Origin: Methanococcoides methylutens MM1
GTDB taxonomy: Archaea; Halobacteriota; Methanosarcinia; Methanosarcinales; Methanosarcinaceae
Length of the DNA stretch: 64,000 bases
Assembly: GCF_000970325.1 (NCBI RefSeq)
Contig: NZ_CP009518.1
Location: 1,364,001-1,428,000, forward strand
Direction of reading: 5' to 3'
A model generated the notes under the pieces. It did not search any database, was not told the origin of the DNA, and saw only the letters and a program-made list of their open reading frames with translations. Below, piece after piece: positions 26,878 to 53,041 of the stretch. The stretch's first letter is position 1. Every line of letters begins with the position of its first letter. Both the position numbers and the translations under genes were made by a program.

Positions 26878-27169
26878 TTCAAAAACTCATCGGATTGTAT
26901 CGTTAGGGGTGTTTGACTGGTGCTGGACGAATATTTTTAAACCTTATATATTTGTTGGTTAAATGTAATTATTAATACATAATTATTGCCGATATGTGAA
27001 AATAAAGAGGAGCTGAACTACAGTTTTTGACATTTTAAGCCATATAAAAATAATTAGGGTAATTTTATACAACCCAAAAAATTCCGGAAATGACGTTCCT
27101 TCAAAAATCAAAACAGCAAACTATAACACCCCTCAAATCTTTAACTTACCATACAACATTTTCTAAATC

Positions 27170-30100: not shown

Positions 30101-30250
30101 GATGTAGATGAGGAGAGGATCGGGATTGTGGTGGATAGCATCAATGCTGTTGTGGAGAGGGTCTTGAAGGATGACTTTGAGGTTGACGGGGAGCCGAATT
30201 GTTATTTCTGTGATTTTAAGGGGATCTGTGAGTGGGGGGAGGGGGAGTGA
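27170..30250 (+). CDS. UvrD/PcrA-like helicase fused to an iron-staple PD-(D/E)XK nuclease domain
   Basis: The protein has 1026 residues. The helicase core carries Walker A GPGSGKT, LALTFSEKAAGEM, DEFQDTN (motif II), DDDQCIYRFRGA (III) and VAMTRAKEELYLVF (VI). The C-terminal ~240 residues are a RecB/AddB-like nuclease with DRVDRTPEGEYIVIDYKTGK. The four Cys of an Fe-S staple are CPLKFKY and Cys1011, Cys1014 and Cys1020 (CYFCDFKGIC). It probably unwinds and degrades DNA ends in repair or recombination. The gene is clearly more G/C-rich than the island that follows. ATG 27170 was used; TTG 27194 after AAGGGGT is a possible alternative start. Confidence 0.9.
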   Translation: MLSKGYSILPSTKLNSNQQKAVTYTEGPLLILAGPGSGKTFTITEKVVDLTENGLSPEKILALTFSEKAAGEMQERIESKIGVGSGITVSTFHSFCNDLIRKFSLNLGINQNAKLISKEHSHVWGIKNIDSFGFQNLAIPSKPYDLITSLLEGVSQLKDHLVSPEELAKYAGRKLEDASIEEGKRDVLLKMSDLARFYEHYQQYKSDNGFLDYDDMISMACNLLETNDVVRNMVKARYDYVLVDEFQDTNFAQLFLVHLIADGNNLTCVADDDQCIYRFRGAYLANIEQLQEYYHTLEKIPLEKNYRSSSQIVQLSQQLIANNPQRQEKNLTAHNGEKSEVKVVKAPDDVSEAEWVAEEITDMINEGVRPGEIFILTRKRADGKKFSESLKQRMVPVEFVGSLQLNRFPVVREAMAYLRVVADPFNNGIAFAKILSREGVSEHNLQKINLQALKISRDDRDTGDGIYSVLLYHLDELDISQKDLIRSIVSRLNELIEYKKSNLPSDTVKHLLSEKTDFYRTQLQEDTQASRRNISILNSLVTTVEDLELVDGGSELETVVEDLELVFGLDLDEGVSSDEDTVKVMTIHQSKGKEAKVVFVCDMATRHLPLNYRRKAFTVPKELSKGRQRDVDEKVLHLEEERRLAYVAMTRAKEELYLVFPEKYEGNKRKVSPSEFLTQLEYTSNPLVGYIEAEQFERKSEVEDVSPLMKKKDEYLRMLGMYSKQGQLKQALESLVVLAQLREIEAEGNLTAFDAKDFLQVNPKQPQELEDLIDNNIPPLVDPNMRFSASKIKTYQDCPLKFKYGTVLNIPTPQKAYFQVGTDVHSVYEQLSQMDMKGESIDITTANQLLDDIWDPAAYPSRTQEQQEHGKMKQMLDFWFRFEADNPNETVAVEEFFDLDLNGAHFGGVIDRVDRTPEGEYIVIDYKTGKTTLPKSKLKDDVQLALYCLAVKEMYGKMPVQAGLLYVNPDVQELRMMDVDEERIGIVVDSINAVVERVLKDDFEVDGEPNCYFCDFKGICEWGEGE

Positions 30251-30330: not shown

Positions 30331-31146
30331 ATGTCATATGAACTTGAAGAAAAATGCTACATTTGTGGAAGAACCAAGAATGAAATCATGGAATTGAGTC
30401 CTCATAACATGTTTCTGAAAACAGTCGAAAACAAGATGGAACACTATAGCACCAGGTTAACTGATTTTAATACAAGATTTATTAATGAACTTGAATCTTA
30501 TATTGGAAACAACAAGGAAAGTCCTTTTTTAGATTTTACCGTTGAATCAGTAGAAAATGACTATAACACATTTTCACAAAAGATTCCTTATCTTGAAGAA
30601 ATATTGACTTTTAAAGCATCAAAATCTCAGAACCTTTCCGAGATCATGGAGACTCTAGTTTATCTCAAAAATGTACTTGAAAAAATTCAAAAAGATCCAA
30701 CAAATGCGGGTCAATATCTAGGAAAGAGTTCATTTAACAAAAAATCAGAGCCTAAAATTGAGTATTATTTTAGGAATTTAATGCCTCCTGAACCTTCAAG
30801 ATATGAGAGGAGATTTCCAATTAGGGGATCAATAAAGGACTCAGATGAACTTAAAATAATTAGTGAATTGACCTATAATGTTGAATTGTGTAAGTCTACA
30901 ATAGACAATTTGAAAGAATCTGTTCAATTTGGTGTAGACAATGGGAATATAGATTTATTCACTTCATGTCCATTAGATATTTCAGAACTATTCCCCGGCT
31001 ATGATAATGATATAATTGAAGATTACAAGTACAATAATAGAACCGATGATTACTCAACGGATGGTCTTACTATCGATTTACCAGTTTGTCTCATTTGCTC
31101 ATCGATGCTGAAGAAATACATTAAAAAGTATGAAACATATTATTGA
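30331..31146 (+). CDS. Unknown protein with N- and C-terminal CxxC knuckles
   Basis: The 271-residue, A/T-rich gene begins the defence island. The N-terminus has CYICGRTKNEI and the C-terminus has CLICSSMLKK, so a split treble-clef or HNH-like zinc site built from both ends is possible. The middle is helical and charged. The sequence shows no membrane segment or catalytic motif I can name. It lies alone, with its own TATA box, between the helicase and the TspO-like gene. Function unknown. Confidence 0.65.
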   Translation: MSYELEEKCYICGRTKNEIMELSPHNMFLKTVENKMEHYSTRLTDFNTRFINELESYIGNNKESPFLDFTVESVENDYNTFSQKIPYLEEILTFKASKSQNLSEIMETLVYLKNVLEKIQKDPTNAGQYLGKSSFNKKSEPKIEYYFRNLMPPEPSRYERRFPIRGSIKDSDELKIISELTYNVELCKSTIDNLKESVQFGVDNGNIDLFTSCPLDISELFPGYDNDIIEDYKYNNRTDDYSTDGLTIDLPVCLICSSMLKKYIKKYETYY

Positions 31147-31400
31147 TATGTAATGTCAAAGTTATTTTGACTTTTTTCTTTTTTGATCTATTAATTGCGT
31201 TATAAATGTGCCACAACTCGGAAAATTGGATTCTAATTAATCCGTAAAAAATTACAAATTTTCAATTTTTCAACTTTCATCACCTTGAAAAACAGAAATT
31301 CCAGCAAAACAAGTTGTGACTTTTGTAAAAGGTTATTTAAAGAAATATTAACAGATTAAACTAATATTCAGATTCGCATTGAAGGGGGGTCAAATCGATC

Positions 31401-32204
31401 ATGAACACCGACCAAAGAAAACAAACAATCAAGATCATCACAGCAGTAACGTTCCTGATAATGATCACCGTCAACGCACTGGCCAACATCCTCCCCATCA
31501 ATGACATCACCACCGGCCAGCTCTCAGACTCCTATCCCAATCTTTTTGCCCCTGCAGGAGCGACCTTTTCGATCTGGGGAATCATATATCTGTTACTGGG
31601 AGGGTACATCCTCTACCAGCTCGGCATTTTTCAGGGAAACACAACCACCGACAGGACCGAGCTCATCTATAAGATCGGAATCCTGTTCTCTGTATCTTCC
31701 ATTGCCAATGCATCCTGGATCTTCGCATGGCACTATCAAATAATCCCATTATCCATGCTGCTGATGATCGTGATCCTCATTTGCCTGATCCTGATAAACC
31801 AGCTGACAAGCAGGGAACAGTTTTCTGAAAGCGAATATTTCTTTATCAGGCTTCCATTTAGCGTTTACTTCGGATGGATCACAGTAGCAACCATTGCCAA
31901 TGCCACTGTACTCCTTGTCAGCCTGGGCTGGAAAGACTTCATTTTGAGTGACGTTTCCTGGACTGTGATAGTAATTGCTTTAGGACTTGTTATCGGCCTT
32001 GCAACCATGCTGAAGAACAGGGATGTTGCCTACGGACTTGTTATTGTCTGGGCTTATTCAGGAATATTGCTAAAGCACATTTCGACTGAAGGATTTGGGG
32101 GGCAGTATCCTGTGATTATCAATACGACGATTGGGTGTATTGGGTTGTTGCTTTTTGGTGTGGTTTATTTGTTGATTTCAAAAAGGAAAATGATGGGTGA
32201 TTGA
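31401..32204 (+). CDS. TspO/MBR-like membrane protein (intact copy A)
   Basis: The 267-residue protein has about eight membrane helices and resembles tryptophan-rich sensory proteins of the TspO/MBR group (FSIWGIIYLLLGGY and SSIANASWIFAWHY motifs near the first helices). Assignment to TspO is by resemblance and is moderate. ATG 31401 was used; GGGGGGT lies 10 bases upstream. From about 31649 to its end and ~25 bases beyond, it is nearly identical to the truncated copy at 34084-34664, and its last ~140 bases recur again near 42024. Confidence 0.6.
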   Translation: MNTDQRKQTIKIITAVTFLIMITVNALANILPINDITTGQLSDSYPNLFAPAGATFSIWGIIYLLLGGYILYQLGIFQGNTTTDRTELIYKIGILFSVSSIANASWIFAWHYQIIPLSMLLMIVILICLILINQLTSREQFSESEYFFIRLPFSVYFGWITVATIANATVLLVSLGWKDFILSDVSWTVIVIALGLVIGLATMLKNRDVAYGLVIVWAYSGILLKHISTEGFGGQYPVIINTTIGCIGLLLFGVVYLLISKRKMMGD

Positions 32205-32241
32205 AGAAAGGTGGGTTGGAGAGGGGTTAAAATATATTGAA

Positions 32242-32409
32242 TTACCTTGGACCAATACCAACTGCCATCATTATCATATAACTTCCTATTAGAATTAGTA
32301 TAGCCCCAGCACCACCCGCATACTTAAACTCTCTTTGAGACAACGCAAATCCCAATTCAAATATTGCATCTTTTTGGTTCTCTTTAACATCGAGTGAGTG
32401 AAACTCAGT
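32242..32409 (-). other. Possible small membrane peptide or gene remnant
   Basis: On the minus strand a frame runs 55 codons from a stop at 32412-32410 to TAA at 32244-32242. Its second half is strongly hydrophobic (KYAGGAGAILILIGSYMIMM), consistent with a single membrane helix. No ATG or GTG opens it before the helix, so it is either a truncated gene or chance. Its 5' part is one arm of the 17-bp inverted repeat. Confidence 0.25.
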
Positions 32410-32435
32410 TTACCCACACGATGTTAAAGAGAACC
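32376..32435. repeat. Perfect 17-bp inverted repeat
   Basis: GGTTCTCTTTAACATCG at 32376-32392 is repeated inverted at 32419-32435, with a 26-base spacer. It lies between the convergent TspO-like and AlbA genes. Length and perfect identity make chance unlikely; it may be a bidirectional terminator, an insertion scar or an element end. Confidence 0.7.
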
Positions 32436-32442
32436 ATGTTTT

Positions 32443-33870
32443 TCAATCCCCGATTTGCGAGTAATATTTTTGTTTTGGACTGCTTGGCTTGTCCGGAATT
32501 GTCATGTGAAGAGTGCCAGATTCAATTAGAGGTTTCAATATTTTTGATCGGAAATGTTCCCTATCTTTTAATTGTAAAAATTCCATTATTTCACTTGTTG
32601 TTCTAGGTTTTTCACAAAAGTCGATGATCAATTCCTGTTTTTCAGCCTGCTGGGTAGCCTGCTGGGTAGCCTGCTGGGTAGCCTGCTGGGTAGCTTGAGG
32701 AGTAACAGGAATAATCGTTTTGAAAATATCTCCTTCGATAAATTGTGTATCGTTACCTCCAGAATAAATTCTGGTATATTTATGGAGATTACGAACTCCA
32801 GAACCCAGTTCTTCCGCTCTACCGATCTCCTTGAAAAAGCGGGCAATTACCGGATTTTTAGGATAAGGGGTGAAGTTGGAAGGATTTATCAGTCCATGTC
32901 CGTGAGGACGGTTTCCGTTTTCGGTTATGACCTGGTCCTGTTCAATTATGAACTTTGCAGGGTAATTATTCAGGAATTCCCTGTGGATGAGTATGTTTGC
33001 AGCGACTTCCCTGAAAATGTTATCACGCAGGCTGATCCTCTGATCTTTTTCGAGATAAAACGGATCCGGCAAGTGCTTGGCAACAAAAGCCATCAGACGA
33101 TCGTAGCTCTCTATCAGGTTAGTGCGGATGTCATCCCGGTCATCATAACGATCAAGATTTACTCTTCGAAGGATTGCATCAGTTCGATATTGAGGAAGGA
33201 TGCTCTGGATCACTTCATCTTTTCCAAACAACAGGACTGCTGCCAGTGTGTAACCTTCTTTCCCGCTCTGGTAATCCCTCTGATACAAACGTGCACTTTT
33301 CAGAAGCTCTTCGCCAGTCATGACGCTCCATGGGTGATTTGGGTTTTCTGCACGGACCATCTTTCTTACCCTTTGGAAGAGATCACTTCTGAGATCTTCC
33401 AGCCTTACGTAAGGATAAATCCGATTTTCAGAGAATGAGCTCTGTTTTCGGATGTACAAATGAGCCACAGCATCAGACTGATTGGTTATATTCATATCCC
33501 CGTCTTCGTTCCTGTCAAATATCTTCCCATTACAGGAATGAACCTGAGAGCTCTCAGGAATATTCAGGTAAAGAACGATCTTCCCGTTGATCTCAAGCGT
33601 TTCCGGCAAAATATAGAGAGGAGGATTGATCTTCTGCGGATTGTTCAATGCGGTTACGAGGTCCTTTTTGATCTGTGGCAATGCATCAACGTCTATTCCC
33701 GTAATTGTCCCGTCATCCCGGACTCCAAGAACAATATGCCCACCATTTCGGTTTAAGAATGAACAAATGCTGTCATACACATCCTTGTTCAACTTACTCC
33801 TGGATTCTTTAAATTCCACAGTAAGCCCTTCACCATCCCTGATGATGCTTTTCAATTGCTCCGAGATCAT
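32443..33870 (-). CDS. AlbA_2/Schlafen-type ATP-binding protein with HATPase_c_4 and winged-helix tail
   Basis: The 475-residue protein has an N-terminal AlbA_2 (divergent AAA-4) domain, with VEFKESRSKLNKDVYDSICSFLNRNGGHIVLGVRDDG, and a central C-terminal RecG-like HATPase_c_4 region (REVAANILIHREF, then ELGSGVRNLHKY). A linker of four ATQQ repeats joins it to a winged-helix end. Such proteins are DNA-binding regulators or defence-associated ATPases. ATG 33870 was chosen because GAGG lies six bases upstream; ATG 33876 has its ribosome binding site too close. Confidence 0.85.
   Translation of the reverse strand: MISEQLKSIIRDGEGLTVEFKESRSKLNKDVYDSICSFLNRNGGHIVLGVRDDGTITGIDVDALPQIKKDLVTALNNPQKINPPLYILPETLEINGKIVLYLNIPESSQVHSCNGKIFDRNEDGDMNITNQSDAVAHLYIRKQSSFSENRIYPYVRLEDLRSDLFQRVRKMVRAENPNHPWSVMTGEELLKSARLYQRDYQSGKEGYTLAAVLLFGKDEVIQSILPQYRTDAILRRVNLDRYDDRDDIRTNLIESYDRLMAFVAKHLPDPFYLEKDQRISLRDNIFREVAANILIHREFLNNYPAKFIIEQDQVITENGNRPHGHGLINPSNFTPYPKNPVIARFFKEIGRAEELGSGVRNLHKYTRIYSGGNDTQFIEGDIFKTIIPVTPQATQQATQQATQQATQQAEKQELIIDFCEKPRTTSEIMEFLQLKDREHFRSKILKPLIESGTLHMTIPDKPSSPKQKYYSQIGD
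32645..32692. repeat. Four perfect tandem copies of a 12-bp unit inside the AlbA gene
   Basis: GCCTGCTGGGTA is repeated four times without a mismatch. It is in frame and encodes the ATQQ repeats of the linker, so copy number can change by multiples of 12 without frameshift. Confidence 0.9.
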
Positions 33871-34083
33871 GATCATCCTCTTTTTATTATTACTTGCTTT
33901 CCCATCCGAATTATCTTACTCAATAACTCAGCTGGAACTTTAAGGGATTATATTTTGAAAGTATGGATATTGTGTGTTCTTAGATATTATTAACGTTTTT
34001 CTTGTCCTGACCTCAACAGCAAAACAGATGTAGCAAAAACAAATCACAAACTCAAACACCCCTTAAATCTTTAATTCCCCATA

Positions 34084-34664
34084 CGACAGGACCGAGCTCA
34101 TCTATAAGATCGGAATCCTGTCCTCTGTTTCTTCCATTGCCAATGCATCCTGGATCTTCGCATGGCACTATGAAATAATCCCATTATCCATGTTGCTGAT
34201 GATCGTTATCCTCATTTGCCTGATCCTTATAAATCAGCTGACAAGCAGGGAACAGTTTTCTGGAAACGAATCTTTCTTTATCAGGCTTCCATTTAGCGTT
34301 TACTTCGGATGGATCACAGTAGCAACCATTGCGAATGCCACTATACTTCTTGTCAGCCTGGGCTGGAAAGACTTCATTTTGAGTGACACTTCCTGGACTG
34401 TTATAGTAATTGCTTTAGGACTTTTTATCGGCCTTGCAACCATGCTGAAGAACAGGGATGTTGCCTACGGACTCGTTATTGTCTGGGCTTATTCAGGAAT
34501 ATTGCTGAAGCATACTTCGACTGAAGGATTTGGGGGGCAGTATCCTGTGATAATCAATACGACGATTGGGTGTATTGTGTTGTTGCTTCTTGGTGTGGTT
34601 TATTTGTTGATTTCAAAAAGGAAGAGGATGGGGTATTGAGTGAAGTTGGGTGGGAGAGGTATTC
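34084..34664 (+). pseudogene. 5'-truncated TspO-like copy B
   Basis: From CGACAGGACCGAGC at 34084 the sequence is nearly identical to 31649 onwards, missing the first ~83 codons. It stays open to TGA at 34639 and the similarity continues ~25 bases past it. The first ATG inside (34190) would start a protein in the middle of a membrane helix, so a functional product is unlikely. Upstream (34046-34083) lies CACCCCTTAAATCTTTAA, similar to the sequence before the UvrD-like gene (near 27130-27150), perhaps a shared promoter type. Confidence 0.85.
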
Positions 34665-34836
34665 AGTAAATCACAAAGTAGAACTGATCTGGAGACACCT
34701 GACCAACTGGCATCTATTACCTAACCTGAACCACTGATAAAATATAGTTGAAACTGATAAAAAATAAAATATATTTTTAACAATAGGCTATTAAAGGAAA
34801 TAGGCTTTCTACACAGCCATATTATACTAATTAAAT

Positions 34837-37800
34837 TTAAGCAAAGCTTTCATCATTGGTTTTTTCTATAAACGCTGATATTTTCTGCATATGCACAGGT
34901 GTATAATACATGTGTTTCATCTGCCCTGCAACCACTACGTCAACTATATAATAATCACCCATTCTCTCTTCAACTTCTTCAGGAGCAACTTCATAGTTCA
35001 GGACTTTTTCAGCTATTTCTAAAATATTAGTCAAATCTCTTTGGGGATGATGTTTCATCAAAGCGTGGCAATTAGGACATAAACAAATAACATTAAACTC
35101 CATATTTGCCCAATCATGAGTGTTTTTTGCCTCAACCAACCTAAAAATTTCAAAATATGGTTGCTTATTAGAACCTAAATTTAATTTTGTATTACAAAGC
35201 TGACAATTTCCATTGTATTGTTCAAGCAAAAAATATTTTGGGTCAATTGAATCGATTATTTTACTAGTTTTTATAATCTCCTTTTTTTGTTGAATTTTAG
35301 TTTTATTAAAACGATCAGAAAGTTTTCCCCCATAATTTTCACGAACGGAATCTTCCTCATCTGGAGATATACTAGACCAACCTAATTTTTCATCATCTTC
35401 GACAGATGACTCCAGTCCTTTAGTAAGCGATTTTTCAAATTTATTTCTAATTTCAGAGGCTGATGATTTCTTCGAATTATCTTTGATTTCATCCATTGAC
35501 CTTATGAATTCTATAACTTTCTTTCTTTCACCATCAGTAAATTTTCGTGATTGTATTTCTGAAATGATTTCTCCAATTTCTGGATATTTCTCTTTCAAAT
35601 ACTGCTCCGCTTGTTGTTCAAATCCGCTTTTAAAATTAAGTTTTTCTGCAAGAGCTTTTGCGTCTGAACTTTCTGTTTCGAATTCTTTTGGTAAATCAGA
35701 GAGCATCAATTCAGATGTATTGTGGAATTTATGATCTTTGTCTGGAACCCAGGAATTTTCAATTAACAAGTCCCCAGATTTAGAGTATTTTTCTGATTTT
35801 GTAGAATTAGAATACTCTTTACGAGTTGAAGTTTCAACAATTCCAGAGATGTTTTTATAATTTTTCTTTAAAAGATTCCATAAAATAATCGCTTTCTCGA
35901 CAGTAATGCTGTTCAACGCAAATTGTAAACCTTCAATTTCAAAATCTGGATCAAAGCCATCTAAACCTCTTTTATGCCATCCATGTACATTGCAAATTGT
36001 TACATACCCATTCCAGCTAGAACTTCGACATTTATTATCTATTTTAGATATGCACCCCAACTTATAATAAAAAGTTATGTCAATGTCAAGATCAGAATAT
36101 AGATCATCTAAAATCCAGATATCTGGATTTCCTTCAAAGAAGATATCAATATCCTTGTTACCTGTAAATAATTCACCAAGATAAATTTCAGAAGGTTTTC
36201 GAAATGAAATATCTCCAGTACAGATATTTCTTGCATATAATATTGGAGTTAATTTTAATGCATCTAACAATTCTTCTGTTCTTTCTGAATCTGCTGGTGA
36301 CATTATCGTACTTGAAATCCACTCTATATGCTGTAGATGCTCTTTTTCATTAATTGATGAAATCGAATTGCAGCTATATAAAGGTAGTATTATATCAAAC
36401 ACTCCCGCCACTTTGTCAGGTTTCAACAAACCTAAATTTTCTAAAAATTCCTTTGCTTTTGAATCATTAGCAATTTCATCTTTGATTGTAGGGAAACGTT
36501 GTCTGAATTCAGAGGGAAAGTAAGCATTTGGTTTACCATTATTATCAAAAGGGGTCACATGTGCATCATTATCTAATCTAATAATATTCTTAAAAAGAAG
36601 GGGTCCTTGAGAATAATAGCTCTTTTTCCAGAGTGCTTTTTGATCTAGAAGAAAAGCATAGAATTTTTTGATCCAATCATCAGACTGTTTTTCAATAAAT
36701 TTTACAGAAAAATCCCTTGAAAATTTGTCAGGATCAATTTCAGGAATTGAAAGTTCATCTACCAAATAAGTTTTAAGTAGGGGAGTCTTATCTTTTGTTA
36801 TACTTCCATCAAGCCATTGAAGATTCTCATGACGCAACAAAATGCTAAGCTGGGTTGAAGATAACAGTTCTCTTAATGATTGTGTACTTGCTAATACTGA
36901 CTTTGCTGCAGTTATATATCCCCCGCTATATGAAGGAAGGAATGCTTCTTCACCAAGTAATTTTTCTTTTACTTTTTGAAATACAGGTAAAAACGTAGAA
37001 TCATCTTCGAATGTTTCGGCATCTAAAGGAAGAGTTTGCAAAAATGATAAGTCAAGCAAATCCATTTCTTTAACTTTACTTAAACTTTCAGCAGTAAGAA
37101 TAGCAATTTCCTTAATTAACAATTTATTCCAGTCGTTTTTGTAGATATTATCTCTAGAAGTCGTTGTTTGAAAGTCTCCCTGAATAAGAAAATTAAGATC
37201 TGTTTTTTTCTCAGTGGGGAAAAAAACTACCAAATTAGTGTCATTAGCTGGAACAATATGTTCTTTTTTTGACTTTTTATTAGTTTGAACTAAATATGCA
37301 ATTTGTACAGTTGATTTTTTTCTATCTTCAATAGAAATTGTTTTGCTAAATTTGAGCCATTTTTCTCTACTTTCTATATTTATGTTTGATTCAGAATATA
37401 GACTGATCCATGAAAACAAAGATTCATCATTTGATTTTTTGTAATATTTTCCATCTAATCCATCAACTTTCCAAGTAATTTCATCTATGTTTTTTAGAAA
37501 TAAGAGTGTTCTTAAACCCAAATTAGTTAATTTAGACTTTATCTCCAAATATGACTCATTAGAATCAATAGTATCATTGTTAAAAGGTATGATAAAAAGA
37601 GTTTGATCACTTTTCACATCATATCTTTGGTCTATTAAATGTGGGTGAACATAATTATTAATGCAGAAACAGTAATCTCCACTGTACACTTCTGGAGATT
37701 TTGTGTATGCATAAACAGATTTAAAACCAATACCAAACTTTCCGATTTGAGATATATCTTGCCTTTTAGTTCCTCTAGCTAGTCTACAAATTCCTTTAAT

Positions 37801-38061
37801 ATCTTCTTCATCAAATGGTATTCCATTATGACGAACCTCTAATCGATTAGGATATAATTCAAAATGAACCGATTTGGGATGTTTAGATTCTTTTTTCCCT
37901 AACCTCTCATAAGCATCTTCGGCATTCTGGAGAAGTTCATAAATGAAATGGGTTTTTTCACTATAGAGCTCTGTCAGCAATGTAGGTCCATATTCATTAA
38001 CAGCCGTACCATAAAGTCCAATATTTTCGTCCCTTATAAGATCATAAATGGTATCGTTCAT
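34837..38061 (-). CDS. GHKL (sacsin-like) ATPase fused to a C-terminal HNH endonuclease
   Basis: The 1074-residue protein starts with a GHKL ATPase domain (~1-200): LLQNAEDAYERLGK is the N-box, and QIGKFGIGFKSVYAYT the G2 box. The G1 box reads HNGIPF, a degenerate form of DxGxG. A long, mostly unassigned middle (~300-930) has no motif I can name. The C-terminus (~953-1000) is an HNH nuclease: CQLC...CPNCH with the VEAKNTHDWANMEFN active segment. The start ATG overlaps the helicase stop by 4 bases (ATGA), so the two genes are translationally coupled. Sacsin-type GHKL domains with nuclease ends occur in defence islands. The gene is A/T-rich. Confidence 0.85.
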   Translation of the reverse strand: MNDTIYDLIRDENIGLYGTAVNEYGPTLLTELYSEKTHFIYELLQNAEDAYERLGKKESKHPKSVHFELYPNRLEVRHNGIPFDEEDIKGICRLARGTKRQDISQIGKFGIGFKSVYAYTKSPEVYSGDYCFCINNYVHPHLIDQRYDVKSDQTLFIIPFNNDTIDSNESYLEIKSKLTNLGLRTLLFLKNIDEITWKVDGLDGKYYKKSNDESLFSWISLYSESNINIESREKWLKFSKTISIEDRKKSTVQIAYLVQTNKKSKKEHIVPANDTNLVVFFPTEKKTDLNFLIQGDFQTTTSRDNIYKNDWNKLLIKEIAILTAESLSKVKEMDLLDLSFLQTLPLDAETFEDDSTFLPVFQKVKEKLLGEEAFLPSYSGGYITAAKSVLASTQSLRELLSSTQLSILLRHENLQWLDGSITKDKTPLLKTYLVDELSIPEIDPDKFSRDFSVKFIEKQSDDWIKKFYAFLLDQKALWKKSYYSQGPLLFKNIIRLDNDAHVTPFDNNGKPNAYFPSEFRQRFPTIKDEIANDSKAKEFLENLGLLKPDKVAGVFDIILPLYSCNSISSINEKEHLQHIEWISSTIMSPADSERTEELLDALKLTPILYARNICTGDISFRKPSEIYLGELFTGNKDIDIFFEGNPDIWILDDLYSDLDIDITFYYKLGCISKIDNKCRSSSWNGYVTICNVHGWHKRGLDGFDPDFEIEGLQFALNSITVEKAIILWNLLKKNYKNISGIVETSTRKEYSNSTKSEKYSKSGDLLIENSWVPDKDHKFHNTSELMLSDLPKEFETESSDAKALAEKLNFKSGFEQQAEQYLKEKYPEIGEIISEIQSRKFTDGERKKVIEFIRSMDEIKDNSKKSSASEIRNKFEKSLTKGLESSVEDDEKLGWSSISPDEEDSVRENYGGKLSDRFNKTKIQQKKEIIKTSKIIDSIDPKYFLLEQYNGNCQLCNTKLNLGSNKQPYFEIFRLVEAKNTHDWANMEFNVICLCPNCHALMKHHPQRDLTNILEIAEKVLNYEVAPEEVEERMGDYYIVDVVVAGQMKHMYYTPVHMQKISAFIEKTNDESFA

Positions 38062-41000
38062 AATTGCTCCCCAACTTTAATGTGGACAATCGCTTCTAAA
38101 TTATAATCAAGTGATAATTCCTGACGATGCTGAAGTTCTTTGATTTTGCCCATATGTTTTGCTTTTTTACTATCAATTCTCCCTTTCATTAGACGCATAA
38201 ATCTTTCATCTGGTTTTTCCCCCTCAGCACTTTGTTTTTCAATATGTCTTTGTAAACTATTTTGTAGTTTTTCGACTTGTTTCTCACAGGATTCTGTCAA
38301 AGCGGTTATTCTACTATCAATTTTAAAGCGGTTTTCTTCCGAAGCGACACGACGTTTTTCTTCCAGAATTTCATCGAGATAATCTCTTGCGACTTCCAAT
38401 AACTCATAAACATCAATGTATTCTGATTCAATTGTTGGATTTTCAATTGAGTCATAAGCTAACAAGCGAGGGATTTTTTCAAATGAAGTTTCATAAACAG
38501 TTTTTGTATTGATATTCACTGGCAATCCTAAAAATTCAATCTCAGTTCTTAAGCCCTCCATACGTACTTCAAATAAAAATACAACATATTCTCCATTGAG
38601 AATATATGATTCAGATGGATTAATACTGAATCTAAATATCTTATATAATGCCTTTTCTTTTTCTAGTTGATGTGTCAAAAATCTTGACCAATATCCAGTA
38701 GGTGAAAGAAATATGTGATCTAGGCAAGTTTCTGCAAGCTGACCATCAAAAACAACTTTCACAGAACTTTTGGTATCAAACAATGCTTTAAGTTCATTGA
38801 AAGTCCCTTCGTTCCCTGGTTTTCTTGAAAATGTTTCTAGTTGGGTAATGATAGTAGGAGATAATTTTATAATGGCTCTACTTTCATCAAGTTTATCAAA
38901 ATTGCAATTCTCATGCATCAAAAGATAAGTTCGTGTTAAATCCATCGCATCGGATGGGCTGACGAAATCTCCTTTAGATATACTATTTATTGGTTTGACA
39001 AGATAATCGTCACCTAATAATTCAGTTCTATATTTTTCAAATTGTTCATATTCTGCTTTTGCTGCCTCAATTGCTTCCTGCAGACGTTGAGACATTTCAT
39101 CTTTTTGTTCATCAGAAAGGTTTCCAGAGATTATTGCCGTTTGAATATCAGCAATTTCTTTACCCATTATAGGTTCAAATGCGCCGATGCCTTCTTCCAC
39201 TAGATTGATTCGACGATAGAGACGATCATATATCTCTTCATCAACTGAATTTTTAATGAACATGTTTCCAACAATTATCTTATCGGCATTCTGTCCAAAT
39301 CGATCAATTCTCCCAATCCTCTGCTCTATCCTCATCGGATTATATGGAAGGTCGTAGTTGAAAATTGCATGACAGTACTGGAAATCGAGTCCTTCACCAC
39401 CGACTTCACTGGAAAGAAGAATATCATATTTCCCTTTTTCAAATGAATCCATCGTCTGAGACCTGTCAATGTCTTCTTTATTTTTCGCCACCTGCGAAAT
39501 TTTTCCATGAATAATTCCAACACTATACCCATCCTTTTCAAGACTTCTTTTCAGATGTTCCAGTGTCTCGACAAAAAATGAAAAAACTATAACTTGAGGA
39601 GTCTCAGGATTTAGAATTATCTTATCTAGCATCTTCTTAAACTGAGAATATTTGCTGTCAATATGGCAAATTTCCTCCAGTTCATCTAATAGCATTTGAA
39701 AATTCACTTTGAGGGACGGAGACAATATGGTTTTGTTAATTTCTGAATCATCTTCATATTCATTAATCTCGGATAAACTGGGTATATCAAAAACTCTATT
39801 ATCTCTTATTGAAGCTTCAAGGTAGTTTTTCATGGCTGGAATGCAGCTACTTATCATCCTGCGGTATGTATTTGTAATAAACCCGAGAATTTGTGGATCC
39901 CTTCCCATGGACAAATAATAATTCTGTATTACTTCTAATGCATGATCTTGAAACCTCAGTTCTTTATCCGAGAGGGTGACTGGTAATTCTAGCACTTCTC
40001 TATGAACCTGATGCTCTAACGCCTCTCTTTTACGAGTTCGTGTAAATGAATAACTGAGTGGGTTTAATGACACTAATAATCTGTCATACCTTACCAACTC
40101 TTCAGGAGAAAGAATCTCTTCCTTATTTAGCCTCTGAATAAAGTCAACAATCTCTTCGTGTTGCGATATTATTTTACCCAAAGGATCGCTTGCAAGCTCC
40201 ACAAATTGAAAAACGATCTCAGATCTCTTTTCAACTGTGTTTTGAGATAATAAACGTCTTATTCGATTTATTATAACAACCGGTCTGTATAAAGCTTCAA
40301 ATGTTGCCCGATCTGGAAAAGCAACTTTGTTAAGAATATGCATTTGATTGTACAAATCATCGCTACTGAGATTCAAAGGTGTAGCTGAAAGCATGAGCAT
40401 CATTTCAGCCATATCACTCAACGCGCTTCCCAATTTATTGCTGTCGGTATCAGGATTTCTCATATGATGTGCTTCATCGATTACAACTAAATCAAATGTT
40501 GCCGCTTCTCTCCTCGAATCCAATTCGTTTAAGAGATCGAGATATTCTTTTCTCCTGAATAGTTGTAAACCAACTATAGAAAAAGCATATTTTCTTGGAA
40601 AAATACCATCTTGTATGGCACTGTTCAAGACATAGCTAAGTTTTTTACCATCGAGTACTTCGAAGTCTAAAAAGAAACGCTCTTTCATCTCCCGTGCCCA
40701 TTTTTGGGTAAGGGAATTCGGGCAGACTATTAATATAGGTGTACTATGTGTCAATCTTTCTCTTGCAAGCATTTCAGTTACAATGATTCCCGTTTCAATG
40801 GTTTTGCCTACTCCAACCTCATCGGCTATGAAAAGTCTTTCATCAGAGTTAGGAGATATAAACTTTAACAAAGGCTTGAATTGATACGGATTAAAAATCG
40901 TTTTACTACCCAGATAACTGTAAAGATTACTTTCAAGTGGTTTGGAGAGCCGAAACCATGTTTGAAATATTTTATATTGAGAACTGTCTCCTAATTCATC

Positions 41001-41711
41001 TTGATAAAAATTCTCAAGAATGTCATCTTCTGGGTCTGAATACAGCTCTAGATACTTTTCAGCGAATGTACGTGTTTTCCCATCTACCGTCACCTGGTAA
41101 GAGAAATCTCTCGAACCTTTAATTACTTTATTAATAGTTCCAATTTTTCTTGTACTGGTCACTATTACATTGTTTCCTGCCTCAAAAATGGGTTGTTTGG
41201 ACATCGAATCCACCTCGATAAATTGATCTGTTTTCTGGGATTTTACCCATAAGCCTTCAAAGTTTGAAATTAATTTTATAGCCTCAGGATCATTTACTCT
41301 GTGAACAACAGACGAGGCAAATTCAATATTTTTGAAGAAACCAGATGCTGTGACATTAACAGAGCCAATAACAGCTTTAACTTCATTATCTGTACGAAAA
41401 ATATAATTTTTACTATGAAAAAATTCTTCACTTGAATAAATACGTGCTTCTACGCCAGGAAGTTCCAAAATTTGATTCAATATCTCAAATCGTTTCTCAG
41501 GAGTTGGAGCGAATCTATCACTCAATAATATTTTGATGTTTATATCGTGGTTCACTATTGAGTTTGCCAGAGTATGAGATAATCTCTTAAGAAAATCTAC
41601 CCCATAAGATCCAAAGTAAGCTGAAGAGATAGCACATTCAATCGCCCCTCTTGCAATCGCTAAAATTTCATCTTCCCAATCAGCTGAGATATACTTGAAA
41701 TTTTTAATCAT
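38058..41711 (-). CDS. PLD-domain SNF2-type helicase
   Basis: The protein has 1217 residues. Residues ~1-160 are a phospholipase-D-type domain with His99, Lys101, Asp108 and GSVN at 116-119: one complete HxK(x)D(x)GSxN half-site, as in single-motif PLD nucleases. The helicase follows: Walker A DEVGVGKT at 297-304, DEAH at 412-415, then RecA2 motifs with SSEVGGEGLDFQ and RIEQRIGRIDRFGQ. The C-terminal ~300 residues are a coiled-coil tail. It is the first gene of an operon with the GHKL-HNH gene. A PLD-linked helicase fits DNA cutting coupled to translocation. Confidence 0.9.
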   Translation of the reverse strand: MIKNFKYISADWEDEILAIARGAIECAISSAYFGSYGVDFLKRLSHTLANSIVNHDINIKILLSDRFAPTPEKRFEILNQILELPGVEARIYSSEEFFHSKNYIFRTDNEVKAVIGSVNVTASGFFKNIEFASSVVHRVNDPEAIKLISNFEGLWVKSQKTDQFIEVDSMSKQPIFEAGNNVIVTSTRKIGTINKVIKGSRDFSYQVTVDGKTRTFAEKYLELYSDPEDDILENFYQDELGDSSQYKIFQTWFRLSKPLESNLYSYLGSKTIFNPYQFKPLLKFISPNSDERLFIADEVGVGKTIETGIIVTEMLARERLTHSTPILIVCPNSLTQKWAREMKERFFLDFEVLDGKKLSYVLNSAIQDGIFPRKYAFSIVGLQLFRRKEYLDLLNELDSRREAATFDLVVIDEAHHMRNPDTDSNKLGSALSDMAEMMLMLSATPLNLSSDDLYNQMHILNKVAFPDRATFEALYRPVVIINRIRRLLSQNTVEKRSEIVFQFVELASDPLGKIISQHEEIVDFIQRLNKEEILSPEELVRYDRLLVSLNPLSYSFTRTRKREALEHQVHREVLELPVTLSDKELRFQDHALEVIQNYYLSMGRDPQILGFITNTYRRMISSCIPAMKNYLEASIRDNRVFDIPSLSEINEYEDDSEINKTILSPSLKVNFQMLLDELEEICHIDSKYSQFKKMLDKIILNPETPQVIVFSFFVETLEHLKRSLEKDGYSVGIIHGKISQVAKNKEDIDRSQTMDSFEKGKYDILLSSEVGGEGLDFQYCHAIFNYDLPYNPMRIEQRIGRIDRFGQNADKIIVGNMFIKNSVDEEIYDRLYRRINLVEEGIGAFEPIMGKEIADIQTAIISGNLSDEQKDEMSQRLQEAIEAAKAEYEQFEKYRTELLGDDYLVKPINSISKGDFVSPSDAMDLTRTYLLMHENCNFDKLDESRAIIKLSPTIITQLETFSRKPGNEGTFNELKALFDTKSSVKVVFDGQLAETCLDHIFLSPTGYWSRFLTHQLEKEKALYKIFRFSINPSESYILNGEYVVFLFEVRMEGLRTEIEFLGLPVNINTKTVYETSFEKIPRLLAYDSIENPTIESEYIDVYELLEVARDYLDEILEEKRRVASEENRFKIDSRITALTESCEKQVEKLQNSLQRHIEKQSAEGEKPDERFMRLMKGRIDSKKAKHMGKIKELQHRQELSLDYNLEAIVHIKVGEQL

Positions 41712-42017
41712 ATGAAGATTCCAGCAAGTTTATACAACAATTTGAAATTATTTGATTATATATAATATTTTATTGAGAGATTTGCATTATCAAATAAAAT
41801 CCAACGATTAAAAAGCCTCTTTTCTAGACTAAACTAATCAGTGAAAATTTTAATAATAAAGACACCTGTTTATGTTTGAACTACAAATAAAAATTTATAC
41901 CCTATTTTGTCTAAAAAGTATTTAAAATTTATGACATAGTTATCTTTGAATTCATATGGGCAATTCAGTTATCAGCCATCAGAAATTACACCATCACTTT
42001 CGAATTATTATGGAATT
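41712..42017. other. A/T-rich spacer upstream of the helicase operon
   Basis: No ORF of credible length was found. The minus strand should hold the promoter of the helicase/GHKL operon; several A/T boxes (for example near 41760-41775) are possible TATA elements, none decisive. Confidence 0.4.
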
Positions 42018-42163
42018 GCAACATTTGGGTATCAGTATCCTGCAATTATTAATACAACGATTGGGTGTATTGGGTTGTTGCTTCTTGGTTAGGCTTATCT
42101 GTTGATTTCAAAAAGGAAGAGGATGGGGCATTGAGTGAAGTTGGGCGGGGGCGGGATTCAAGA
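42018..42163 (+). pseudogene. TspO-like 3'-end remnant (copy C)
   Basis: From about 42024 the sequence matches the last ~140 bases of the TspO-like gene, including CAGTATCCTG, ACGATTGGGTGTATTGGGTTGTTGCTTCTTGG and the tail GATGGGGCATTGAGTGAAG. It differs from copies A and B by an in-frame TAG (GGTTAGGCT) in the last helix, so it is dead. The end abuts the mcrC stop. Confidence 0.85.
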
Positions 42164-42164
42164 T

Positions 42165-43196
42165 TCATGCTATTATTTCTAACAAATCATTCTTGATGTA
42201 ATGCCAATCCTGATTGAGATTTATTGACATTATCCTGATCCTGTGATTTTCGTAATTGTAACAAAAACTAAAGTTACTCTCAACAGCTGGATATAATAAA
42301 ATTCCTTCACACGATTTGGTGATTTCCGACTCTGATTCTTGATTTTTCAGGTAGGAGAACAACTGATATAGGTTATTTGAATTTATTTTTTCTTGCGAAA
42401 ATCTGGTCTTAAGAGCTTCTTTATAGTATTTGGTATCAATTATTATTTTTCTTGAAGCCGATTGCAATGAAATATCAGTAATCATTATTGGCAACATTGA
42501 TAAATCATTTTCATTTTCAGATGTTAATTTCCAGTTTATCTCTTCGATTTTTACATTGAATTCTGATTGTTCAATTTTATAGAAATTTCTAACAAATGAC
42601 TCAAACAATCTTGCCATTGCCTTTTCTTCTCGCAAGAAATCTTTAAATTTGTAGTCTCCTGATGATTCATCAATAAACAAATTCTCATTGATAATCTGAC
42701 ACACTTTCAGTGAAAAATCATAATTGTAATTGTTTCTATGTAATCTGATTTGTTTAAAATGAGAATTCCTAATTTTAATTTCTGAAATTGGAGGGAGTTT
42801 AATTAGAAGTCTATGTAATTCATCTTTTAGTTCTCCATCGAGGTGATTTATCCTCAGAAGATTAGAAATTGTTGTTTTCAAAATCTGGTTATGTAAAATA
42901 TCATAATCAAATTCGTCATATACACAAACTGTTTTACTTGAATGAAGAGTATTTCTTTTAACAGAAGCAGAAAGATCTAATTTTCCTTTTATTCCATTTA
43001 CAACGTATTCATTTTCAACGTAATAACGATCTAAACCCTGTTTTAATAATCTTGATGTACTATTAATTAGGATTTTAGCAAATAGATCGATAAGCTCGGT
43101 GCTACTGATTGCTCTAACATCGACAATATCGCTTTCATCAAGCTTATTCCAAGCATAACATAAAAGATAATAAAGATTTTCAATTGGAATTGGCAT
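42165..43196 (-). CDS. mcrC: McrC-like component of the McrBC restriction system
   Basis: The 343-residue protein starts PIPIENLYYLLCYAW, as McrC proteins do. Its C-terminal half is a PD-(D/E)XK nuclease with IIDTKYYKEAL carrying the catalytic Asp and Lys; the first Asp is in the TDISL strand before it. McrC is the nuclease partner of McrB and cuts DNA with modified bases. The gene starts 8 bases after the mcrB stop in the same operon. Confidence 0.9.
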   Translation of the reverse strand: MPIPIENLYYLLCYAWNKLDESDIVDVRAISSTELIDLFAKILINSTSRLLKQGLDRYYVENEYVVNGIKGKLDLSASVKRNTLHSSKTVCVYDEFDYDILHNQILKTTISNLLRINHLDGELKDELHRLLIKLPPISEIKIRNSHFKQIRLHRNNYNYDFSLKVCQIINENLFIDESSGDYKFKDFLREEKAMARLFESFVRNFYKIEQSEFNVKIEEINWKLTSENENDLSMLPIMITDISLQSASRKIIIDTKYYKEALKTRFSQEKINSNNLYQLFSYLKNQESESEITKSCEGILLYPAVESNFSFCYNYENHRIRIMSINLNQDWHYIKNDLLEIIA

Positions 43197-43204
43197 GTCT
43201 CTGA

Positions 43205-45763
43205 TCAGTCTAATAAACGATTTATCGCAGCTTGAGACTTTTCTATATCATCAAACCAGTATTCTTCTAAAAGAGGCTGAATTTCGTAATTTACGATATC
43301 TTCAAACCATTCATTTTCAGATTTGTCTTTCTTATTGTTGCAGAAAAAGCTGTGGCCTATCTGGAAACCTTCTCCAAGATTCTTATCGGACTTTATTTTT
43401 CCATTCAAAGAGTTGATCTTTGAAATCATATTGTCTACAAAACCTTTTGAAAAACTTTGTGAGATAAGCAAATCAATAAATTTCTGATTAAACTTTGGTC
43501 CTAATGGAATAAACCTGAACCTTCTTCTCAAAGCATAATCAACGATAGCGAGCGAACGATCAGCAGTGTTCATCGTACCGATCAAATAAAGATTTTCAGG
43601 AACAAAAAACGCTGCATCGTCTTTTTCAGAATAAGTTAAATGCACCTTATACTTACCCCGCTTGTCGGTTTCTATCAACATCATCAATTCTCCGAAAATC
43701 TTGCTAAGATTTCCTCTGTTGATTTCATCAATGATGAAGAAATACTTGTTATCAGGATCATTCTCTGCTTTTTTGCAAAAATTGTAAAAAATACCGTTCT
43801 TTACTTTAAAGGTATTTCCTGATGGCCGAATACCCTGAATAAAGTCTTCATATGAATACGATTGGTGGAACTGAACCATTTCAATTTTTGTATCATCGGT
43901 ACTCTTCATAATTTCATAAGCAATTTTTTTGGCGACAAAGGTTTTGCCTACACCTGGAGGACCCTGCAATACAACGTTCTTCTTAATTTCAAGTGCATCT
44001 AATATAGTCTTAAGTTCAGAATCTTCAATAAAAGGTTTCTCAGGATCTGTAGAAAATGAATATTCTTTGATATCGATTATTTCTTTTTCTAATTCGTTAT
44101 TGATATTCCTTTCATCTATAAGATCCCTAATAATATCAAATTCTTCAGCTGTCAAGCTGAATAAGCTTCCTTGATTATTTTTAATAACTTCACAGTCTTC
44201 TAGCCCTTTTGTTTCCTTTAGATCATCCCAGGTAATGGTATCTGTGACTAATTCCTTTATTTCAAAACTGATTATTTCGTCTTCGTTCTCATCGTTATGT
44301 AGCCCCTCCACAATTTCAAATATTCCTTTGATTTGCTTAACAGGCGTACTTTCATAACCAATTACAAGATCTCCCGGTGCCACCTCTTCGAAATATTTGT
44401 ACACCCTTCTTTTGTTGCCTTTGCTATTATGGGATGTATAGGACTGGATATCCCCTAACTCATAGCTGTCAATTTTCCAGATTTTTGGATTTGCATTTAA
44501 CCACCAATAATTTTGAGTCCCATAATCACTTGGCAATACTTTTGTGGGAGGGAGAGTCTCTTTTCCAGCTTCTAATTCATCAAATATTTTTCTATAAGAA
44601 GCATCGGCATCGATATATTTTTCTTTAATTCTTTCCCATTTAAGAGTTGGCGAAAATGTATCTGCTCTAAAAATAGTTTTCTCAAAATCGATTTGTCGAT
44701 TTATGAGCCATTTTACTTTCCTAATATGTTTATATTCAGTTCTTTCATCATCAAAAACATATTCTCCTTCTATTACTCCAATTCCCAAACATTTTTTTCT
44801 GCCTTTGTTAGCAACAATTATATCACCAATACTTGCATCACGAAAACTTTCAATATTCCAGATCTGATTGGAAATGGAAGAATTCTCAACATTCAAAGTT
44901 TCAGCAAGTTCCTCAGTTGTATATTTATTGAGATCTCCTAGCCCATCCCAGCCTATTGCAATTATGCCTTCTTTATAAAACTCATCCCAACGGCTAGCAT
45001 TTTCACCAGGCGCAAATTTCCAATAATCAATAAGTAAATTGTTTTTATTTGCAGCCTCTTCTTTTGAGGATTCCAGTTGTTCAATAACCTCTTCGATAGT
45101 ATTAAACTCATCAACTGTATTGGAAGCTTTATCATTTATATCCGAGCCAGGAGCGATTCCAGCTTCCATAATTTGGTCATGGATACGTAAAAATAATTGG
45201 TAGGATTTGCGATGAGACACCCTTTTTTTAGGAAACAAAGCAATCCAGGAAGAGGAAGCACCGTAATTTTGTGCCCCTTCGAATCCAACAATGTGCTTTT
45301 TGTAGAATTCTAATTTCAGCGTATTCATTAGCTCTTCTGCGATGTTTTCAAGAGCATTATCGGATTCTTCTTCATCTGCTGATCGATAAAAGAATGGGAA
45401 AAGAATACTGAAATATTTCGCCCAGTTCACGAAAGGGCTTTTCTTTTTTTCAGGATAACGAATCAATCCGTTTAATATTGATTCATCATATTTCGAAAAG
45501 TAATCTGTATCTTTTGCAATTATTTTCTCTTTAATAAATTCGATTAATTCAGTTGTTACTGTATTCTTATATTTTATATTGTTCAATATTTCAAGACGCA
45601 AAAGATTTACTGGCTGGAATCTGTCACGCGTATAGTGATTAATAAGTTGATCTACAATTTCAGAGTCAAGGTCATTTAATTGTTCGAAAAGATAACTTTC
45701 ACTTTCTTCTAGCTTTTTTAACCTTTTAGCATGTCCCTGAATAATATCAATCGATTCTTGCAT
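43205..45763 (-). CDS. mcrB: McrB-like GTPase with two PUA/EVE-type modified-base readers
   Basis: The protein has 852 residues. The first ~240 residues are helical with no clear assignment. Two modified-base-reading modules follow: ~245-390 (YWKFAPGENASRWDEF and later GDIIVANKG), and ~420-500 (NYWWLNANPKIWKI, GDLVIGYESTP), of EVE/PUA type. The AAA+ GTPase starts about 590: Walker A GPPGVGKT (~601), Walker B FFIIDEINRG (~675), and MNTADRS (~731), the McrB GTP signature. ATG 45763 was chosen because GGGTG lies five bases upstream. Confidence 0.92.
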   Translation of the reverse strand: MQESIDIIQGHAKRLKKLEESESYLFEQLNDLDSEIVDQLINHYTRDRFQPVNLLRLEILNNIKYKNTVTTELIEFIKEKIIAKDTDYFSKYDESILNGLIRYPEKKKSPFVNWAKYFSILFPFFYRSADEEESDNALENIAEELMNTLKLEFYKKHIVGFEGAQNYGASSSWIALFPKKRVSHRKSYQLFLRIHDQIMEAGIAPGSDINDKASNTVDEFNTIEEVIEQLESSKEEAANKNNLLIDYWKFAPGENASRWDEFYKEGIIAIGWDGLGDLNKYTTEELAETLNVENSSISNQIWNIESFRDASIGDIIVANKGRKKCLGIGVIEGEYVFDDERTEYKHIRKVKWLINRQIDFEKTIFRADTFSPTLKWERIKEKYIDADASYRKIFDELEAGKETLPPTKVLPSDYGTQNYWWLNANPKIWKIDSYELGDIQSYTSHNSKGNKRRVYKYFEEVAPGDLVIGYESTPVKQIKGIFEIVEGLHNDENEDEIISFEIKELVTDTITWDDLKETKGLEDCEVIKNNQGSLFSLTAEEFDIIRDLIDERNINNELEKEIIDIKEYSFSTDPEKPFIEDSELKTILDALEIKKNVVLQGPPGVGKTFVAKKIAYEIMKSTDDTKIEMVQFHQSYSYEDFIQGIRPSGNTFKVKNGIFYNFCKKAENDPDNKYFFIIDEINRGNLSKIFGELMMLIETDKRGKYKVHLTYSEKDDAAFFVPENLYLIGTMNTADRSLAIVDYALRRRFRFIPLGPKFNQKFIDLLISQSFSKGFVDNMISKINSLNGKIKSDKNLGEGFQIGHSFFCNNKKDKSENEWFEDIVNYEIQPLLEEYWFDDIEKSQAAINRLLD

Positions 45764-45923
45764 TTTCGCACCCACTCTGAAAATTGATCATACAGTAATT
45801 ACCACTATTAATATCGTTATTGTAAGAATATATTTAAGATTAAGATTGGCAGCCAAGATTAAGCAAATCGTTCTTTGTTTTGATTTATTCAATCAAAATA
45901 TACACTCATTGAACATATGATAG

Positions 45924-45968: not shown

Positions 45969-46420
45969 AATTCATTGATCTTGAATATGTGCTCAAATAG
46001 CATAGACAAGAAGGACTCCATTAGGACAGAGAATTATTCAATGAAGCTCAGGCCCAGTGGGGCTAAGAAACTGACTGAAGAAATCAGTTGGTGGTTCAAT
46101 AAAAGAGTTAGATATCAAAACAAAATCCAATGTGGAGCTATGTTATTCTCCTGAAAGCTAGAGAATTAGCTTATTATTTGACTGGTAAACGAAAAGAAAT
46201 CGACTTTTTGGAACCACAATATACGACAAAACGACAGGATTCAAGCGACATGCGACAGAAGATCCTCAGTATATCGTATTCTGATTGGAAAAAGCTAGGT
46301 TTTTCAAAAGGAACATTACATTATATGAAGAAAAATGCCGAAGCTGATAAGCATTTTATGCTTAATGCACATGTAAGAGAACGCTTGAATCAATGGGAAA
46401 AACTTGTCGCAAACGGTTAA
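45969..46420 (+). pseudogene. cas1: cas1 3'-end remnant with one frameshift
   Basis: Joined across one shift near 46131-46134, the two frames give ~150 residues like the C-terminus of CRISPR-associated Cas1. The first frame, open from 45969, ends ...RYQNKIQC; the second (ATG 46130) goes on WSYVILLKARELAYYLTGKR, then LGFSKGTLHYMKKNA and the end. One lost base (TGT-TGG to TGT-GG) explains the break. The first ~200 residues, and the catalytic part, are missing. Upstream is a stop and no cas gene. It marks a lost CRISPR-Cas locus. Confidence 0.75.
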
Positions 46421-49702: not shown

Positions 49703-49713
49703 AGGTAATAGAT

Positions 49714-52291: not shown

Positions 52292-53041
52292 ATGCAAGAA
52301 CTCCTCACCCTCCTGCAAAACTCAAAATACTGCGTCATCCTCACCGGCGCAGGGATATCCACGCTTTCAGGCATACCGGACTTCCGGGGGAAAGACGGGA
52401 TCTATAACAAGTTCGATGCGGACCTTATCTTTTCAATAGACTACTTCAACGAGGATCCTTCGTATTTTTATACGCATTCCAGGGAACTGATATATGATCT
52501 TGAGAGGAAGGAGCCGAACATCATTCACAAGGCACTGGCAGAGCTTGAGAGGAGGGGGATCGTTAAGGCGGTGATCACGCAGAACATCGATATGTTGCAC
52601 CAGAGAGCGGGGTCTGAGAACGTTATTGAGGTTCACGGGTCTCCGGCGAGGCATACGTGTCTTGCATGCGGGAAAAAGTATTCCTTTGAGGAGGTTGTGG
52701 GGCTTCTTGAGAAGGAAGAGGTTCCCATGTGCAATGAGTGCGGGGGGCTGATCAAGCCGGATGTTGTGTTCTATGGGGAGATGCTTGAGCATGATGTGAT
52801 CGAGAAGGCCATTGAGGAGAGTTCCCGGGCAGACCTTATCATTGTGCTGGGATCAACGCTGGTGGTTCAGCCGGCGGCTACGCTTCCGTTGTATACCCTT
52901 GATCACGGCGGAGAGCTTGTTATTGTTAACAACATGCCGACTCCACTCGATGATTATGCCAGGAGCAGGTATGACGACCTTGTGGAGGTATTCAACTATC
53001 TGAATGAGGAAATGGGTCTTAATATTTCAGAACATATATAA
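52292..53041 (+). CDS. cobB: Sir2-family NAD-dependent protein deacylase
   Basis: The 249-residue protein has GAGISTLSGIPDFRG at ~19-33 (NAD-binding), QNIDMLHQRAG and EVHGS with the catalytic His, a zinc site (CLACGKKY and CNECGGLI), and LIIVLGSTLVVQPAA. It removes acyl groups from lysines with NAD use, for example from chromatin protein Alba or metabolic enzymes in archaea. It has its own TATA box and no ribosome binding site. The base composition rises sharply in GC here against the island. Confidence 0.93.
   Translation: MQELLTLLQNSKYCVILTGAGISTLSGIPDFRGKDGIYNKFDADLIFSIDYFNEDPSYFYTHSRELIYDLERKEPNIIHKALAELERRGIVKAVITQNIDMLHQRAGSENVIEVHGSPARHTCLACGKKYSFEEVVGLLEKEEVPMCNECGGLIKPDVVFYGEMLEHDVIEKAIEESSRADLIIVLGSTLVVQPAATLPLYTLDHGGELVIVNNMPTPLDDYARSRYDDLVEVFNYLNEEMGLNISEHI

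Follow-up and report, generated by a model that had tools for sequence, protein, structure and literature searches.

The window analysed in the present work is a stretch of 64,000 nucleotides from Methanococcoides methylutens MM1 (contig NZ_CP009518.1, positions 1,364,001 to 1,428,000 of the forward strand; all coordinates given below are positions within it), whose genome (G000) consists of a single contig of 2.39 Mb. Two genes that each have a DNA match in 10 of the 11 genus genomes bound the region of interest. The left anchor is a UvrD/Rep-type helicase with a Cas4-like C-terminal region (27170–30250, + strand), which matches the NCBIfam PcrA/Rep/Cas4-like models below their curated cut-offs, and the right anchor is a sirtuin-type deacetylase (52292–53041, + strand), which matches the NCBIfam deacylase model above its cut-off. 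The GC content falls from ~45–50% in the flanks to 31–36% over roughly 35–51 kb. Judged from gene content and from comparison with related genomes, the region from helicase to sirtuin is a variable defence locus, and a membrane gene, among the few sequences conserved within it, acts as a homology anchor.

Our analyses have identified three copies of the 3′ end of this membrane gene, all of them direct repeats that match one another far beyond chance (self-BLAST of the whole window), as the first-pass annotation of this DNA had reported; no further copy has been found in a search of the genome. Copy A (31248–32235, + strand) comprises the intact gene, an ORF of 267 codons at 31401–32204, together with its upstream region and a 31-bp spacer past the stop codon, and it is colinear with the sister species G001 and G005 (91.4% identity). 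Copy B (34084–34665, + strand) is truncated at its 5′ end, its first base falling in codon 83, and it extends to 26 bp past the stop codon. Copy C (42018–42160, + strand) retains only the last ~110 coding bases and contains an in-frame TAG; these states of the three copies are as first described. Copies A and B are 94.3% identical over 576 bp without gaps (31649–32224 and 34084–34659), copies A and C 85.7% identical (32093–32204 and 42023–42134), in keeping with the predicted gradient of identity, and copies B and C 87.0% identical (34528–34665 and 42023–42160; E 4e-38).

The cargo of the locus is distributed around these copies. Between the helicase and copy A lies an ORF of 271 aa (ORF X; 30331–31146, + strand) with no family match. 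Between copies A and B, where it had been placed originally, is an AlbA/Schlafen-type ATP-binding gene (32443–33876, − strand; Pfam SLFN_AlbA_2 and Fic-like_C) with relatives of 86–90% aa identity in G006, G002, and G010. Just past its 3′ end is a near-perfect palindrome of 62 bp (32375–32436; dG −38.3 kcal/mol, z −9.8), which is possibly a terminator; its interpretation as a repeated mobile end has no support, the palindrome being present in a single copy in the genome. On the other side of AlbA, a short stretch of the preceding gene survives (33877–33935, − strand), apparently the final codons of a type I restriction-modification (R-M) specificity gene. In G006 its nucleotide match continues into the 3′ end of the ORF that precedes AlbA; on our own reading, we take this ORF to be HsdS. 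On the same reading, the AlbA-type gene of G006 (L161 8005–15371) is located between HsdM-like and HsdS-like genes in a type I restriction operon.

Between copies B and C, again in agreement with the earlier placement, are a GHKL/sacsin-type ATPase (34837–38061, − strand; Pfam SACS; PADLOC TmtA, 1e-74), with relatives of 61–66% aa identity in G023, and a PLD-SNF2 helicase (38058–41711, − strand; Pfam SNF2/Helicase_C/PLDc_2; PADLOC DrmD, 1.5e-117). The latter protein does not place the locus among DISARM systems: it scores 318 bits with the NCBIfam DISARM_DrmD model, below the cut-off of 610, and no drmA, drmB, or drmC gene is present beside it among the 10 cargo proteins scanned, the SNF2 protein itself also being a weaker match to a DrmA model. 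An SNF2–GHKL pair of 77% nucleotide identity is found directly beside the helicase in a genome of another genus (G023; L160 10057–20000), in the opposite orientation relative to the helicase. To the right of copy C follow McrC (42165–43196, − strand; Pfam McrBC; NCBIfam McrC above cut-off) and an McrB-type AAA protein with an EVE domain (43205–45775, − strand; Pfam AAA_5 and EVE). The first-pass annotation had McrC beginning at the edge of copy C; this has to be reversed, as McrC ends there, its stop codon (42165–42167) abutting the copy, and the membrane gene and McrC stand tail to tail. In G009, a McrBC block of 87.8% nucleotide identity lies on the opposite side of the helicase (L207 8271–12102), its match to the window ending with the stop codon of McrC. 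The remaining cargo consists of a gene-end remnant (46130–46420, + strand), without a Pfam assignment, which presumably resembles the Cas1 C-terminus and has related fragments in G009 and G010, and three genes for DNA methyltransferases, of which the last also encodes an Mrr nuclease domain (46795–52068, + strand; Pfam MethyltransfD12, N6_N4_Mtase, and Mrr_cat; PADLOC MTase_II). The relatives of the Cas1-like remnant are fused to the tail of the membrane gene in G009 (L021 10142–10369) and located near the helicase in G010 (L166 5528–5623).

The membrane gene itself has no match in Pfam or NCBIfam, and we refer to it as TspO-like after a relative on a plasmid that bears the annotation "tryptophan-rich sensory protein." Its nearest named relatives are on Methanosarcinaceae and Methanolobus contigs. 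TspO-like genes of 56–58% identity occur on 11 IMG/VR contigs (L226–L236), and distant relatives in 39 plasmid records are all under 60% identity; none of these is likely to have been a recent donor. Among 60 genomes searched, 13 matched the gene, of which one (G020) was left out as its match is a stretch of 36 bases. Extra copies of the tail are present in 2 of the 12 gene-bearing genomes, viz. two in G000 and one in G008, and these are the only genomes with more than one match. In seven further genomes (G009 from the same genus and six from other genera), no direct repeats touching the membrane gene were found in the 20–40 kb inspected in each. Duplication is therefore not a general property of the gene, and its candidacy as a general integration target was rejected.

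The helicase and the sirtuin are neighbours in six genus genomes, but the distance between them varies from 22 kb in G000 to ~17 kb in G005, ~7 kb in G001, ~4.9 kb in G008, ~4.4 kb in G007, and 938 bp in G004. The last of these lacks the membrane gene, which shows the gene to be optional in the locus. The cargo differs from species to species: NERD and DUF4357/GIY-YIG-like genes in G007, NERD-UvrD and TPR genes in G001 (TPR being our reading of the ORF), SNF2, DNA methylase, HEAT/CHAT, and NERD-UvrD genes in G005 (the methylase likewise from our ORF reading), and DUF6884 and others in G008. Beyond these species, G030 has an McrBC-like pair after the helicase and G002 a further sacsin-type gene, and the helicase neighbourhood may be a defence address for the whole family; in 21 further family genomes and in G004, this neighbourhood was examined for relatives of the proteins of the window only.

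The origin of copy C is indicated by G001 and G005, in which a single intact membrane gene is joined directly to the sequence that forms the right flank of copy C in the window, namely the end of McrC, of which the last 36 codons remain in G001 and ~45 in G005. In both species, the match to window positions 31248–32235 and the match to 42023–~42280 form one contiguous stretch and overlap by ~142 bp, and this overlap is the part that is present twice in the window. Copy C is therefore the displaced native tail of the gene, colinear with the gene/McrC junction of G001 (91%) and G005 (86%), and the DNA from 32.2 to 42.0 kb is an insertion that splits an older junction. These comparisons show that in an older chromosome the gene was joined tail to tail to McrC, and that later DNA split the junction, leaving the intact copy A on its left and copy C on its right. 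The empty site with one intact gene that the first-pass annotation had called for thus exists for the A–C interval, but none has been found for the A–B interval that holds AlbA, and no genome shows the membrane gene directly followed by the GHKL operon.

Copy C is not a uniform descendant of one allele. Its coding part is closest to G001, with 3 differences and the TAG codon in 96 bases, and it is a mosaic of the G001 allele and the B allele (maximum chi-square permutation p 0.0029, 18 informative sites): the first nine informative sites follow G001, and the later sites mostly follow B. The coding ends of A and B are of another type than the G001-type first part of C. In the spacer past the stop codon, A is nearer to G001 and G005 (26/32 and 27/33), and B and C are alike (26/32), a pattern from which it follows that there were more crossovers than the simplest two-step scheme requires.

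Copy B has a different history. The 63 bp to its left (34026–34088, + strand) match the region just upstream of the UvrD-type helicase that stands left of copy A, with 84% identity to G007 (E 5e-13), 84% to G008 (7e-11), and 82% to its own genome (1e-8) in local BLAST; within the window, the corresponding block is 27104–27158 (+ strand), which is 82% identical to 34034–34088, the orthologous blocks of G007 and G008 being those with 84% identity. A dispersed repeat is ruled out as the source of these 63 bp, since their sole significant match in a search of 11 genus genomes was the helicase upstream region of G007; this search missed the weaker copies upstream of the helicase in G000 and G008 that local BLAST detected. 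The order at copy B is the chromosomal order, viz. helicase upstream region followed by membrane gene; the whole stretch from the start of the helicase through codon 82 is absent, and the sequences at the junction have only a few bases in common. The presence of helicase upstream sequence before B therefore marks B as what deletion has left of a larger, second version of the locus, and the comparisons show it to be a colinear remnant of a second helicase-to-membrane-gene segment with an internal deletion. The earlier proposal that each insertion carries just a duplicate of the 3′ end does not hold for a copy with such a flank.

Over 510 bases, copy B differs from A with a dS of 0.107 and a dN/dS of 0.29, and A differs from the membrane gene of G008 with a dS of 0.118 and a dN/dS of 0.24; of the 24 changes between A and B, 12 are synonymous, where ~6 would be expected without selection by simple arithmetic from the site counts. 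The low dN/dS and the dS similar to that between A and G008 imply that B was functional while it diverged, and that it has moved about as far from A as the gene of a sister species. For most of its separate history it thus remained functional, whether in another lineage or within a full second copy. A tree of A, B, and the orthologs from sister species is an unresolved star, and an attempt to name the donor of B from it yielded none.

A mirror arrangement is found in G008, where a 59-bp tail fragment is fused to the stop codon of the helicase and is followed by ~0.9 kb of cargo and then by the intact gene; this fragment is nearer to the tail of A (83%) than to that of its own genome (75.5%). 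Other scars are present as well, and the McrC ends in G001 and G005, together with the Cas1-like and HsdS-like remnants, indicate that the locus has been shaped by frequent deletion.

The explanation that we favour, with a probability of roughly 60%, is that homologous recombination of an additive kind in its conserved anchor genes enlarges this variable defence locus, and that deletions then prune the spare copies. Incoming DNA with the locus version of a sister species would have recombined once within the anchor, in a Campbell-type or one-sided event, and the resident version would not have been replaced. With a single recombination in place of a replacement, each event would add cargo and double part of the anchor. 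A single crossover between the resident anchor and the incoming locus would leave an intact hybrid to the left and displace the native tail to the right, which is the arrangement of A and C, and could likewise produce tandem copies of the locus, as the helicase upstream piece before B implies. Later deletions of a microhomology type would have cut the spare copies down to fragments, giving B and the fragment in G008, and selection would have kept one intact membrane gene. The crossover itself is inferred, as is the form of the donor, whether circular or linear with homology on one side. The blocks of antiviral genes were thus most likely added by ordinary recombination at the membrane gene and not by a dedicated mobile element. 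A more elaborate version, to which we give somewhat less than an even chance, is that defence islands in these archaea can grow by a recombinase-free ratchet, in which a foreign locus is added whole by a single anchor crossover, the tandem versions are stripped of their spare anchors, both sets of cargo are kept, and the tail fragments count the additions.

Two other explanations also start from duplication. Each defence block may have inserted alone, duplicating a long stretch of its target without any donor copy of the anchor; the A–C interval has this form, the empty allele containing the ~140-bp segment once and the insert being flanked by two copies, and the cargo is of the restriction type for which such a pattern is described, in the parts of the literature available to us, for R-M systems (PMC3031569, PMC1643837). 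We nevertheless consider this unlikely. Copies made in this way should start identical, yet the first part of C is of the G001 type and the ends of A and B are of the other, and a duplication within the membrane gene cannot supply the helicase upstream sequence before B. The copies are allele-like, have diverged in the manner of sequences under purifying selection, in the case of C are mosaic, and are not simple target duplications. An ancient tandem duplication of the helicase-to-membrane-gene segment in this lineage, with deletions and independent insertions of cargo thereafter, would account for the colinearity of B with the chromosomal order, and the A–B divergence is compatible with the age of the split between G000 and G008, as is the star-shaped tree. 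It is nonetheless less probable again, as by itself it leaves unexplained copy C, whose McrC junction is common to G001 and G005, and the cargo in each gap between copies, and the second copy in G008 is only 59 bp long and located at a different position.

Gene 3′ ends are classic att sites, and the cargo abuts the end of the membrane gene in all five locus-bearing species (5/5), so that site-specific integration there by an integrase-bearing element that has since been lost has to be considered. The repeats in question, of 576, ~140, and ~59 bp with differing starts, are unlike a constant short att core. The earlier observation that no integrase is seen has been borne out: no recombinase is present among the proteins scanned or listed in the cargo of G000, G001, G005, G007, and G008 (serine recombinases were looked for through the cargo family scans only), the only match to the tyrosine recombinase family PF00589 in the genome is at ~0.51 Mb, ~0.85 Mb from the window at 1.36–1.43 Mb, and there is no tRNA within the window. 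The range of repeat lengths and the lack of a recombinase in these searches make site-specific integration very improbable. The lowest probability is assigned to the absence of any special process, in which a selected gene lies in a region prone to deletions and insertions, and junctions pile up at its stop codon because deeper ones destroy the gene. The other gene-end remnants nearby (the McrC ends in G001 and G005, the Cas1-like pieces in G000, G009, and G010, and the apparent HsdS end) are consistent with such a process, which explains the positions of the junctions, but not why there is a second and a third copy, why C is mosaic, or why helicase upstream sequence precedes B. We regard it as a component of additive recombination with pruning rather than as a full alternative.

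The partial anchor copies at this locus bear on the question of how defence genes build up at a single chromosomal address with no mobile element to help. They form a readable record: two sister species preserve the empty site, the native tail has been displaced, and a second locus copy has left a remnant after deletion. If the additive model is true, past stacking events elsewhere could be detected simply by counting the anchor fragments of other islands; if the ratchet is true, the remaining direct repeats could let a single cargo block be amplified or lost later on.

Our literature searches returned no description of this locus, and those for methanogen islands or for truncated copies at defence hotspots gave no relevant result. 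Integrase-dependent islands are characterized by a linked site-specific recombinase and a constant short att core at both ends, neither of which was found at the present locus. Defence hotspots between core genes are known from Pseudomonas aeruginosa (PMC10250203) and Escherichia coli (PMC10121019), and, as presented in the accessible portions of these accounts, they resemble the present locus in having diverse defence systems at one chromosomal address with conserved genes as bounds. The locus described here differs from them in that the membrane gene is itself accessory, being missing in G004, and in that its scars show successive events.

Closer comparisons are provided by two systems. Insertion with long target duplication has been described for R-M genes in Helicobacter (PMC3031569 and PMC1643837, citing Nobusato et al., 2000), and, as far as the consulted sections describe it, the present case is like it in having restriction-type genes, without a transposase or integrase, between direct copies of a long target, and a relative with the one-copy allele. 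The flanking copies here do not duplicate one and the same target: they are allelic mosaics, C being partly of the G001 type and partly B-like, and B brings with it sequence from upstream of a second anchor gene. Moreover, one gene has two extra copies of unequal length stacked at it, and a mirror case is present in a sister species. In Halorubrum, the swapping of cassettes between fixed core genes has been proposed to occur by homologous recombination in conserved flanks (PMC11078007, in the portions consulted), and these homeocassettes are similar to the present locus in being archaeal and in carrying different cargo between the same conserved genes, as is the case in G000, G001, G005, G007, and G008 (the interval in G004 being 938 bp). 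They are described there as mutually exclusive, with at least half of their genes homologous, which is replacement; the cargo of G000 is stacked, has little gene content in common with that of the other species, and comes with a partly duplicated anchor, which is addition. Hence, the present case combines features of long target duplication and of homeocassettes, and departs from each of them in one defining feature.
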